DNA of 45,738 bases from Akkermansia muciniphila (GTDB lineage: Bacteria > Verrucomicrobiota > Verrucomicrobiia > Verrucomicrobiales > Akkermansiaceae), in NCBI GenBank assembly GCA_945874895.1, contig CAMCIC010000022.1, positions 1 to 45,738 on the forward strand, given 5' to 3'. Of the stretch, positions 40,973 to 45,382 are shown piece after piece. The notes below the pieces were generated by a model. It had not been told where the DNA came from, did not search any database, and saw only the letters and a list, made by a program, of their open reading frames with translations. Every line of letters begins with the position of its first letter. Within the stretch, counting starts at the first letter, position 1. A program made the translations under genes and the position numbers.

Positions 40973-41001
40973 TTGACAAGGCAAAAACCGATTTTTTTAT
41001 C
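40973..41001 (+). promoter_or_regulatory. sigma70-like promoter candidate for kptA
   Basis: TTGACA (40973-40978) matches the -35 consensus exactly. A 17-bp spacer leads to TTTATC (or TTTTAT one base earlier), a moderate -10. It lies about 50 bp upstream of the kptA start in the gap divergent with rhaI. Confidence 0.4.
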
Positions 41002-41047
41002 CTTTGCCTTGGCTCATGCATCGCTCACTGTGATGCTCCGACTTGTC

Positions 41048-41596
41048 ATGAGTTCATTTGAAAACCAACTCAGTCGTTTTTTGAGTCTGGTGCTACGCCA
41101 TGACCCAAGCTCCATCGGCTTGCAACTCGATGAAAACGGCTGGGCTCGCTTGGCGGACTTGATCGCCTGCATGAAAAAGCACGGCAAACGAGTCGATCAG
41201 GCCATGATTTTGCGCGTGGTGGAGACCAGTGACCCGCAGCGCTTCCGTGTCTCCGATGATGGCGTATCGATCCGCGCGAATCAGGGGCACTCGATCGCCA
41301 TCGAACTGAAGCTGGAGAAAATGGCTCCGCCCCAGTGGCTCTATCACGGCACCGCGGTGAAATCGATGCCCGCCATCGTGCGTGAGGGGCTGCGCAAACA
41401 ATCGCGCCATCACGTTCCTCTCAGCGTGGACCGCGCCAGCGCAAAAAAAGCTGGCGCGCGTCACGGTAAGCCCGTGGTGTTGGAAATCGCCGCACAACTC
41501 ATGGCACAGCACGGCTATCCGTTTTACCACGCGGATAATGGCGTCTGGTTCACGGACCATGTTCCGCCCGATTACCTGAACCAGCGCTTCACCTGA
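41048..41596 (+). CDS. kptA: RNA 2'-phosphotransferase (KptA/Tpt1)
   Basis: A 182-residue enzyme that moves an internal RNA 2'-phosphate to NAD+. The catalytic Arg17-His18 pair is in LRHDP, followed by the winged-helix part, DPQRFRVS, IRANQGHS (about 75-82), YHGT (99-102) and HHVPLS (121-126). The usual block is HVHLS; here the second His is Pro, a departure of note. ATGs at 41033 and 40973 lie upstream in frame, but homologues start at SSFENQLSRFLS-like sequence, so I chose 41048. The bacterial role is unclear because bacteria lack the fungal tRNA-splicing substrate. No RNA ligase is nearby. Confidence 0.88.
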   Translation: MSSFENQLSRFLSLVLRHDPSSIGLQLDENGWARLADLIACMKKHGKRVDQAMILRVVETSDPQRFRVSDDGVSIRANQGHSIAIELKLEKMAPPQWLYHGTAVKSMPAIVREGLRKQSRHHVPLSVDRASAKKAGARHGKPVVLEIAAQLMAQHGYPFYHADNGVWFTDHVPPDYLNQRFT

Positions 41597-42388: not shown

Positions 42389-43066
42389 CTAATGTGGCAC
42401 GTGAGGGCGCACCGCCTCAGCCAGCAACTTGTATCCCGCTTCGTTGAAATGAAGTTGATCGGCAACAAAAAGTTCTGGTCTGATCTTGCCAGCGGCATCG
42501 AGTGTAATGGAAGAAGCATCAATGAAGATGAGATTTTTGTTCTTCTTCGACTCATCCGCGATGGCTGCATTCAACTGATCGCACGCGGCTTTTTCATGCC
42601 AACGGGCCGGTGAGGGACTGAGAGCGATGTAGGCAATGGGGACGTCCGGAAGTTTCGCCCGGATGGTGGCGACGAAGGTTTTATAGTCGTGAAACACTTG
42701 CTCGGCGGATTTTCCGGTATGGATGTCATTGCCCCCAGCTCGAAGAAAAATCATTTTCGGTTCATAGGGAAATATCATGCGCTCGGCGAAATGCGTGCTG
42801 TCCACGATTTCGTTGCCGCCGAAGGCTCGGTTCAGAATGATCGCACCGGGAAAATCCTGGGCGAGAGACTTCCAGCGGACGATGCCAGACGAACCGATAA
42901 AGAGCAGCGCGTGCTTCGGAGGCGGCTGGCTAACGTCGCTTTTCTCGAATGCAGCGATATCTTTTTCCCACTTCGCAAAGTCATGTGGCTTCGCCTCTGC
43001 ACGGGGCTCGGCACCCACAAAAGTCATCATCAACATCAAGGCGATCCATGAAACCCGCGTAAGCAT
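42389..43066 (-). CDS. secreted SGNH/GDSL-type hydrolase
   Basis: A 225-residue protein from the ATG at 43066 (MLTRVSWIALMLMMTFVGAEP, a signal peptide); an ATG at 43075 is as likely. SGNH blocks: Ser in LLFIGSSGIVRW, Gly/Asn in NRAFGGNEI, Asn in LRAGGNDIHTG and Asp/His in VADQLHFNEAGYKLL. The nucleophile block is GSS rather than the classical GDS, as in a subset of bacterial esterases. The substrate is unknown. It is 109 bp upstream of the small membrane protein, and divergent from pyrE. Confidence 0.83.
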   Translation of the reverse strand: MLTRVSWIALMLMMTFVGAEPRAEAKPHDFAKWEKDIAAFEKSDVSQPPPKHALLFIGSSGIVRWKSLAQDFPGAIILNRAFGGNEIVDSTHFAERMIFPYEPKMIFLRAGGNDIHTGKSAEQVFHDYKTFVATIRAKLPDVPIAYIALSPSPARWHEKAACDQLNAAIADESKKNKNLIFIDASSITLDAAGKIRPELFVADQLHFNEAGYKLLAEAVRPHVPH

Positions 43067-43192
43067 ACCACTCATACGGAATCGGATCGCCTTCCATATC
43101 AATGAGTGCTGATGAGCCAAGCAATCGGCCATTTTGACAATTTCCCACGCTTCCTGCTTTTCCTCATCACAAAAATCCGCCACTCTCCCGCC

Positions 43193-43759
43193 ATGTCCGA
43201 TTCCGTATCCGCGCTCCGCTCACTTTTGTTAGAAAAATCCGTTCGCACCGGCACCTTCACATTGGCCTCAGGGAAAATCAGCGATCTTTACATCGACTGC
43301 CGCGTCTCTACGCTCGATGCCCATGGCGCGAACCTCGTCGGTGAGGTCGGTTGGACCGCGGTGAAAGAATACATCGCCGCTCACGATCTGCACATCGATG
43401 CCATCGGCGGCATGACCATGGGTGCAGATCCGATTTCCCTCGCCGTCGGCATGTTTTCTGCCCGCGAAAACCCTGCCGCACCGCTTCAGGTTTTCACGGT
43501 GCGCAAGGAGCCCAAAGGCCACGGCCGCGGTAAGCAAATCGAAGGAAATTTTTCCCCAGGAAATACGGTGATCGTAGTAGATGACGTGATCACTACGGGG
43601 GGCTCAACACTCAAGGCCATCGATGCCATCGAGGCGGAAGGCGGGAAAATCGCTTTCGCACTCGTGCTCGTCGATCGCGAGGAAGGGGGCCGCGCCGCCA
43701 TCGAAGCCCGCGGCATCCCCGTGCTGGCACTCTACGCCCGCAGCAATCTGTTAGGCTAA
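43193..43759 (+). CDS. pyrE: orotate phosphoribosyltransferase
   Basis: A 188-residue enzyme that joins orotate to PRPP in UMP synthesis. The PRPP motif VIVVDDVITTGGSTLKAID lies near residues 123-141, with FTLASGKISDLYIDCR at the N-terminus, DAIGGMTMGADPIS and the flexible KEPKGHGRGKQIEG loop. The ATG at 43193 fits the usual length; the frame upstream is antisense to the SGNH gene. The kinase-fold gene follows after 12 bp. Confidence 0.95.
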   Translation: MSDSVSALRSLLLEKSVRTGTFTLASGKISDLYIDCRVSTLDAHGANLVGEVGWTAVKEYIAAHDLHIDAIGGMTMGADPISLAVGMFSARENPAAPLQVFTVRKEPKGHGRGKQIEGNFSPGNTVIVVDDVITTGGSTLKAIDAIEAEGGKIAFALVLVDREEGGRAAIEARGIPVLALYARSNLLG

Positions 43760-43771
43760 TCCGCTGCCCTC

Positions 43772-44794
43772 ATGATCTCCCGCTGCAAGGAAAAATACCA
43801 ACCCTCCGCCCTGTTGCGGCAGTATCTCCACCGCTTTGCCCGGCAGATCGAGATCCCCATGGTCTATGACGACCTGTTTCGTTTCCAAGGCGTTGTCCCC
43901 TACGAGGATCCCTTCGGCAACGAAACGCTGTGGATGACGGTGATGTATCCACCTGAGATGCGGCAGTCCCTGCAGTCGCGACTCATTCGCATTTATACCG
44001 AACTCAAAATCGGCGGCGAGAGCGGTCTGCACGAGCACCTTAGCGTGGATCGCATCGACTTCGGCGAGTTCGGCAATTCCAAACCCTTCCGCATCCGCAT
44101 CACCAACCTCTATAACGACAACTCGGATTATTTCTATGTGAAACAGGCCGATGCCTCACGCATCTACGGTCTCGAGCTCGAACACATCCTTTCGCCCAAC
44201 CGCATCAACTACCTCGTGAATGGCAACACGCTCATCGAGGAACACATCGCCGGCGTGCCGGGAAATGTGTTCCAACGCGATCATTTGCGGCGCCCCGAAC
44301 TGAATCGTGTCCGTATCGCCAAGGAATTCACCAAATTCAACGAGCGTTGCTTCATCCGTTTGTTAGGTGATATGCGCAGTGTGAATTACGTCGTCGATAT
44401 CACACCGGACTTCGAGGAAGTGCAATACCGCGTGCGCCCCATCGACTTCGACCAACAATCCTACGAAGGCCCGGGCCGCACCTACCTCGCCTATCATTTC
44501 GATTCAAACCGCGCCGTGACCAAACTCGCCTTCGGCGAACTCAACCGCCGCACCATCGAGCAATACGTTGAGGAAGAGCGCGCGCAAATGGCTCGTCGCG
44601 CCCGCGTAGAAAGCACCCGCCTCAAAGCCGTGCTGGGCATCATGCGCCGTGAGGAGCTGGCACCGCGGCCGCACGTGGCGCGCCTCGCCAAAGACCTGAT
44701 GAAATATCACAAAACCGATGTCTTTCACGACTGTGAGACCATGGGCGAACTCACCGCCGTTCACATCATGCACATGCTGGGCATGAACGATTGA
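43772..44794 (+). CDS. conserved protein with kinase-fold signature (function unknown)
   Basis: A 340-residue protein I do not recognise by name, but residues 105-232 fit a protein-kinase-like (APH/HipA/fructosamine-kinase-type) fold. Lys124 in YFYVKQ matches the beta-3 ATP lysine, Glu135/Glu137 in GLELEHIL the alpha-C Glu, NTLIEEHIAGVPG (152-164) the hinge, Asp200 and Asn205 in LLGDMRSVNYVV the catalytic loop with exact D+5=N spacing, and Asp225 in PIDFDQQ the metal Asp. The N-terminal 100 residues are an extra domain and the C-terminus (about 245-340) is helical. It has no signal peptide. It follows pyrE by 12 bp and precedes ssrA. Activity and substrate are inference only. Confidence 0.75.
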   Translation: MISRCKEKYQPSALLRQYLHRFARQIEIPMVYDDLFRFQGVVPYEDPFGNETLWMTVMYPPEMRQSLQSRLIRIYTELKIGGESGLHEHLSVDRIDFGEFGNSKPFRIRITNLYNDNSDYFYVKQADASRIYGLELEHILSPNRINYLVNGNTLIEEHIAGVPGNVFQRDHLRRPELNRVRIAKEFTKFNERCFIRLLGDMRSVNYVVDITPDFEEVQYRVRPIDFDQQSYEGPGRTYLAYHFDSNRAVTKLAFGELNRRTIEQYVEEERAQMARRARVESTRLKAVLGIMRREELAPRPHVARLAKDLMKYHKTDVFHDCETMGELTAVHIMHMLGMND

Positions 44795-44885: not shown

Positions 44886-45237
44886 GGGGGCGTTCTGGTT
44901 TCGACGGGATGTTTGACGCGCTGACTGCACGTGGAGGTTGATCGGTTGGCCTCCTTAAAAGCCGGTCAAAACAAATAAATGCAGACTCTAACGAGCTCGC
45001 ACTGGCTGCTTAATTGACGGCCACGTCTGAACCCCGACGCCTGTTAGGGGGGAAGGCGACACTTAACAGGCTGGGCATGAAGTCGGGTGACCGGATGGAT
45101 TGCTGAGAACTCACAGGTCTCTAGGAAAGCAACGCCGCATGAGGGCCGCGCTTCTCCGAATCACCGACCCCATGCTAAACGTGTAGAAGTCATCGTAGAC
45201 GGCGTCTCGGACAGGGGTTCGACTCCCCTCGCCTCCA
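44886..45237 (+). ncRNA. ssrA: transfer-messenger RNA
   Basis: A one-piece tmRNA of 352 nt that rescues stalled ribosomes and tags the unfinished protein. The 5' end GGGGGCG pairs with CGCCTCC near the 3' end as the tRNA-like acceptor stem (one G-U pair), and GGTTCGACTCCCC gives the T-arm. The 5' part has the classic TTCTGGTTTCGACGGG. The tag reading frame is at 44981-45013: resume codon GCA, encoding ADSNELALAA, then TAA. The C-terminal ALAA matches the ClpXP/ClpAP degradation signal. CCA is not encoded. A possible promoter is TTGAAT near 44840, but its -10 is uncertain. Confidence 0.96.
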
Positions 45238-45382
45238 CTTGCTGGTGTTTTTCACCCTCCTGATCGCATCTTCCCCCAAGCAGTGGGAAGAATGCGCTTG
45301 GGAGTTGCGGTATCTGGTCCTCTCGCCTCCTCCAGTCACGATCGGCAACTCGATTCATGCCCGCAGCTGGCAGTCGCCGCAC

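Follow-up and report, generated by a model that had tools for sequence, protein, structure and literature searches.

A conserved bacterial protein family with a predicted kinase fold, encoded next to pyrE in Akkermansia muciniphila

What does the protein do that is encoded between pyrE and the tmRNA gene ssrA in Akkermansia muciniphila, and does it belong with either of these neighbors? We approached this question on contig CAMCIC010000022.1 (assembly GCA_945874895.1), of which the whole stretch of 45,738 nucleotides that was analysed is referred to as the window. A preliminary description of this DNA had read the product as a kinase-fold protein from its motifs and had proposed coupled expression with pyrE. 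The kinase-fold reading holds for a family that is uncatalogued in the libraries searched.

The gene and its family

The pyrE stop codon (43757-43759) is separated from the ATG of the family gene at 43772 by 12 bp on the same strand (Table 1). The upstream gene matches the NCBIfam pyrE model TIGR00336 (9.8e-39, 132.9 bits, over the cut-off of 106.8) as well as Pfam Pribosyltran (5.6e-08), while the tmRNA starts 91 bp downstream of the kinase-fold ORF. The protein is probably cytosolic, as judged by the lack of a signal sequence by eye. Elsewhere in the window, 40973-41596 (+) encodes a Tpt1/KptA-family RNA 2'-phosphotransferase (Pfam PTS_2-RNA, 8.9e-46) and 42389-43183 (-), divergent from pyrE, a GDSL-like lipase/acylhydrolase (Pfam Lipase_GDSL_2, 7.7e-19).

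Table 1. Coordinates of the kinase-fold gene, its predicted active-site elements, and its immediate neighbors in the window.
Feature	Position	Strand	Remarks
pyrE (orotate phosphoribosyltransferase)	43193..43759	+	Immediate upstream neighbor; likely start ATG 43193
Kinase-fold protein gene	43772-44794	+	ATG to TGA, 340 aa
Codons 100-106, FGNSKPF	44069..44089	+	Putative nucleotide-binding loop, flanked by predicted strands 90-98 and 106-112 (DSSP)
Lys124	44141..44143	+	In strand 117-125; 100% of 94 representatives; putative ATP phosphate anchor
Glu135 to Glu137	44174..44182	+	In helix 128-140 of the model (alpha-C-like); 99% and 100% of 94
Catalytic loop G199-D200-M201-R202-x-x-N205	44366..44386	+	D and N in 100% of 94
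D225-F226-D227	44444..44452	+	DFG-like metal-binding motif; 100% of 94
tmRNA (ssrA)	44886-45238	+	Tag ADSNELALAA; neighbor only

A search of near genomes, which took in the window's own, found relatives in 45 of 57; the 12 genomes that yielded no match include one of the same genus (G001), and in another near genome (G004) the copy is divided between two contig ends. Across the window's phylum, Verrucomicrobiota, about one fifth of the genomes carry a relative (59/288, or 60/288 with a weak partial match in G312, E 2.9e-4, that was left out of the count), as do about one quarter of the Bacteroidota genomes (68/247). Copies are nearly always single and full-length. Since the weakest full-length match still scored E 2.1e-108, with a sole weaker match at about 3e-4 in both phylum searches, the borders of the family are sharp at the search sensitivity used. 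A genome-contig scan with the patterns FGNS.. and R.AKEF.., from which the catalytic residues are absent, yielded at least 578 confirmed relatives, the best 80 of which are all titled Verrucomicrobiota or Bacteroidota; culturable relatives with the family were met there in Hymenobacter and Pontibacter. No copy was found in plasmid, phage, and viral-contig collections. The family is conserved at full length and spans Verrucomicrobiota and Bacteroidota, the phyla sampled. COX1 was of no use as a correlate of family presence, as it is present in 236 of 247 Bacteroidota genomes and too common to discriminate.

Several single genomes deviate from this pattern. A genus of the window's own family (g3) has no copy, with 20 genomes listed without a match (e.g., G011 and G076), an apparent lineage-specific loss. 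Among the 247 Bacteroidota genomes, only G426 carries two copies, the second being more divergent (E 2.1e-108). The copy of one metagenome-assembled genome (L049:65-1078, +) carries an in-frame stop, which reflects either an assembly error or decay.

The family changes at a pace like that of pyrE, not slower: of 12 distinct loci, 5 are more similar to the window in this protein than in pyrE (89.1 vs 86.2 and 81.3 vs 75.9% identity, among others), and 7 are less similar (as with 74.3 vs 82.2%). On the gene tree, the phyla need three changes, and 0% of 200 bootstrap trees have one, while the well supported branches force only one phylum change. The tree is without a clean split of the two phyla, and transfer between them is possible on its branching pattern.

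In the libraries searched, the family bears no named function, in keeping with the preliminary description. No credible model match was obtained in Pfam (25 and 38 members searched), NCBIfam (1 and 38 members), PADLOC (42 members), or PHROG (1 member). Each library model that did match hit no more than two members (best E 0.0018), the sole kinase-type Pfam match at E ≤ 1 among the 25 and 38 members being ABC1 in one member (E 0.2). Profile searches of the PDB likewise brought up no credible match, with E values no better than 0.043 and 0.18, and, judged by titles and abstract openings among the matches listed, no paper is evidently about the family. Should this widespread and nearly always single-copy family without a credible library entry be an active kinase, the bacteria concerned possess a phosphorylation step that has so far gone unnamed.

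Predicted fold and active-site residues

The AlphaFold2 model, based on a 42-row alignment, has a mean pLDDT of 85.8 and a pTM of 0.86. It is bilobal with a kinase-like order of elements, in which an N-lobe sheet with an alpha-C helix is followed by a helical C-lobe. Confidence is lowest near the catalytic loop and the DFD motif, with block means of 62-73 at residues 191-210 and 221-240 and values under 50 at residues 228-232. In a Foldseek search of the PDB, all 50 matches listed are kinase entries, some of them pseudokinase domains, and the 12 of 1915 matches at E ≤ 0.001 are without exception kinase or pseudokinase domains. All of these are remote similarities, with query TM-scores from 0.22 to 0.39 and E values down to 5e-4; the top query TM-score among the 12 belongs to VPS34 (0.39). 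Re-alignment with VIA-align 2 against 993 chains placed PI3K, PI4K, or PIKK kinases at all of the best 50 positions (Z 11.9 to 9.4, 234-268 residues aligned), headed by VPS34 (7rsj, Z 11.9, 258 aligned, 4.5 Å, 9% identity). According to the tool's own guidance, best Z values of 7-8 are frequent and predominantly helical models go up to 14; by that measure the top value is good, not overwhelming. The viral library BFVD contributed 12 matches at E ≤ 0.001, of which 9 carry a kinase annotation and 3 no named function. The predicted structure is thus a bilobal kinase, in agreement with the Foldseek matches and the VIA re-alignment, and a protein-kinase-like fold, which the preliminary description had proposed from motifs, is supported by the model.

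The N-terminal 109 residues modelled alone (pLDDT 84.7) gave no convincing fold match, neither with Foldseek (E 0.81 at best) nor with VIA (Z 2.9 at best). As the cut at residue 109 passes through the N-lobe sheet, this null result does not imply a new domain.

To describe conservation, 207 sequences were extracted and two short ones dropped; the remaining 205, some of which are the same gene fetched twice, were reduced at 80% identity to 94 representatives (43 Bacteroidota, 51 Verrucomicrobiota). The landmarks Lys124, Glu135, Glu137, Asp200, Asn205, and Asp225 had been placed correctly by the preliminary description, and its four key residues (Lys124, Asp200, Asn205, and Asp225) proved invariant in 94/94 representatives, together with Glu137, Phe226, and Asp227, while Glu135 is kept in 99%. 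This conservation exceeds chance because it is kept in representatives that are less than 80% identical and come from two phyla. Nor is it built in, as the scan patterns lacked those residues. The catalytic loop reads GDM(R/H)xxN in 92 of the 94, residue 202 being Arg in 85, His in 7, and Phe and Ser in one each. Asn205 and Asp225 are spaced by 20 residues in 79 of the 83 rows in which a script matched both motifs. Over the full alignment, mean column identity is 62% (38 members, two phyla) and reaches 63% over the first 109 residues (36 members).

Kinases carry their nucleotide loop between the strands just before the Lys strand. Residues 100-106 sit just ahead of the strand with Lys124 in the model and by this position likely form the corresponding loop. 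Within it, Asn102 and Pro105 are found in 100% of the 94 representatives, Gly101 in 95%, Phe100 in 88%, and Ser103 in 82%, a conservation that is partly built in for the loci from the genome-contig scan.

Likeness to named kinase families

The closest structural neighbors of the model, VPS34 and the other PI3K, PI4K, and PIKK kinases, display a resemblance only, at about 9% identity. hhalign pairs GDMRSVN of the family with GDRHLDN of VPS34 and IDFD with IDFG, but the pairing is not significant. Against the single VPS34 sequence, a weak test, the score of 11.5 falls under the mean of shuffles (15.8, sd 2.5, n = 40). The motif DRHxxN characterizes the PI3/PI4-kinase family and occurs in the VPS34 sequence. 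In contrast, it occurs in none of the 205 sequences of the present family, which mostly have DM(R/H)xxN. Moreover, the metal Asp and the Asn are 20 residues apart in the family but 13 in VPS34, as counted on the VPS34 sequence. PF00454 found no match at E ≤ 1 in either member set (25 and 38), and none in 198 Bacteroidota genomes, some with the family, in a search in which no control genome passed the cut-off. That the family is a PI3K is not supported, and common descent with PI3K, PI4K, and PIKK lacks a sequence tie.

HipA, APH, and FN3K, with which the preliminary description had suggested a comparison, are no closer by profile: in the 25 and 38 members searched, Pfam gave no match to HipA (PF07804), to APH (PF01636), or, at E ≤ 1, to FN3K. 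Their structures are absent from the best 50 of the 993 VIA chains, which excludes none of them. The D-x-H-x-x-N loop of HipA, which 31 of 33 reference loci contain, has a counterpart in the D-M-H-x-x-N of 7 of the 94 representatives; however, the hhalign probability is 0.4% (31 sequences), and the aligned part lies outside the active site. HipA is adjoined by a HipB-type antitoxin gene (PMC9758233); in the present family, no neighbor recurs widely over 119 loci (ORFs ≥ 80 aa). For APH, hhalign brings the catalytic loop into register with that of the family (23 reference sequences of 30 loci), but with a probability of only 2.5% (23 sequences). By sequence, then, neither PI3K nor HipA nor APH is significantly linked to the family.

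A fold that is recognizable only by remote methods is shared with other divergent kinases. In the passages considered, this applies to the Legionella kinase families described as potential effectors (PMC9758233) and to SelO, a separate family (PMC3281104); nothing in these passages of the two papers points to the present family.

Candidate activities and gene neighborhood

Given the predicted fold and the conserved catalytic set, we consider the protein likely to be an active ATP-dependent phosphotransferase, whichever substrate it uses. It would constitute a family of its own with a protein-kinase-like fold and depend on ATP and Mg. ATP would occupy the interlobe cleft, where the 100-106 loop and Lys124 would hold it; Lys124 is probably paired with, and thereby braced by, Glu135 or Glu137. 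Asp200 would act as the catalytic base, while Asn205 and Asp225, perhaps joined by Asp227, would bind Mg.

Regarding the substrate, a protein is our first guess, held with less than even confidence, because conservation over the whole length suggests a large conserved partner; the pace of change, no slower than that of pyrE, weighs somewhat against it. A metabolite follows closely as the second guess, and a lipid substrate or a non-kinase transfer makes up the remainder; the preference for a protein over a metabolite is itself a guess. The fuller picture of a new bacterial protein-kinase family, with a PI3K/PIKK-like core, an N-terminal extension of its own, and a stand-alone phosphorylation pathway in Bacteroidota and Verrucomicrobiota, is possible, though we would not call it probable.

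Within the active phosphotransferases, the protein might be a small-molecule kinase that works alone on a metabolite, similar in action to APH, fructosamine kinase, or choline kinase, a sub-case we regard as conceivable but doubtful. It would agree with the lack of a recurrent partner gene and the many unrelated kinds of neighbors, with the APH catalytic loop falling into register, and with the model, in which the next long helix follows about 16 residues after DFD and leaves no long activation segment. Against it stand the low hhalign probability and the missing Pfam match for APH, as well as the conservation that reaches across the first 109 residues.

Kinase-fold proteins with other chemistry exist, SelO being an AMPylase on this fold, and the DFD and DM(R/H) motifs of the family depart from those of classical kinases. 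A SelO-like AMPylase or another non-kinase transferase is nevertheless improbable: the 25 and 38 members have no SelO Pfam match, and nothing specific to AMPylation was found. Even less likely is a catalytically dead scaffold. The first Foldseek match, the TYK2 JH2 pseudokinase domain, and the uncertain modelling of the catalytic loop would fit a pseudokinase, but the catalytic Lys, Asp, and metal Asp are lost in none of the 94 representatives from two phyla, and these conserved residues are the ones a working kinase needs.

Turning to gene order, we asked what accompanies the family gene. By tblastn (E 1e-5), pyrE is near the family gene in 15 of 110 loci from 13 distinct genomes, all of close relatives (L031 and L032 repeat two of L001-L008). 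Eight genomes of the genus (L001-L008, among them the window's) and two metagenome-assembled genomes (L034 and L035) have it immediately upstream; in L010 and L033 it precedes the family gene at a distance of some 830 bp, and in L022 it follows at about 1.1 kb. As a divergent pyrE could escape tblastn at this threshold, a search for its PRPP-site motif was added, which picked out 5 of 140 loci, each of them already among the 15; neither tblastn (110 loci) nor the motif (140 loci) placed pyrE in any further locus. Of the 110 loci, 59 were scanned for a tmRNA: apart from the window, the gene has one beside it in three of them (L002-L004, all in the genus), and none was found in the genus loci L005, L031, and L032 or in any other of the 59. 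Hence, the adjacency to pyrE and the ssrA neighbor, both reported in the preliminary description, are real in the window. The pyrE adjacency extends no further than the genus and some close relatives and is not conserved across Verrucomicrobiota, coupling to pyrE is not supported beyond these relatives, and the tmRNA adjacency is limited to part of the genus. A role in pyrimidine synthesis or trans-translation, suggested by the short codirectional gap after pyrE and by its recurrence in the genus, is contradicted as a family-wide function because the linkage is missing elsewhere, and we give it hardly any credence.

Other neighbors were counted over 119 of the 140 loci with a home-made ORF picker (ORFs ≥ 80 aa), and for the codirectional counts the family gene was set in for all loci but L049. 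A codirectional neighbor within 60 bp is present upstream in 44 and downstream in 42 of 137 loci, while 50 of 135 loci lack one up to 100 bp away in both directions. The two commonest neighbors (16 and 15 of the 119 loci) are encoded on the strand opposite the family gene, and their position differs between loci. For a Pfam scan, 47 neighbors were chosen, one per cluster and side, and 7 short or overlapping ones left out; the remaining 40 close codirectional neighbors contained 68 Pfam families of many unrelated kinds, each in one protein, a design that hides recurrence, which was counted separately over the 119 loci. Recurrent neighbors are lineage-specific, and gene order reveals no fixed operon partner.

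Three such neighbors were looked at individually. In 9 Verrucomicrobiales loci, a 169-aa protein without a Pfam match is encoded directly upstream (cluster 90, L055:1636-2142, +). In 7 Verrucomicrobiales loci, the family gene is directly followed by a methyltransferase gene (cluster 144), the one member tested (L068:7020-7595, +) being nearest to the NCBIfam ornithine lipid N-methyltransferase OlsG, below the cut-off (115.7 of 350 bits). Further, a bshA-like gene precedes the family gene in 7 Bacteroidota loci (cluster 321; L163, L166, L167, and others), and the one member tested (L164:6027-7214, -) is the bacillithiol synthesis gene bshA (TIGR03999, 581 bits).
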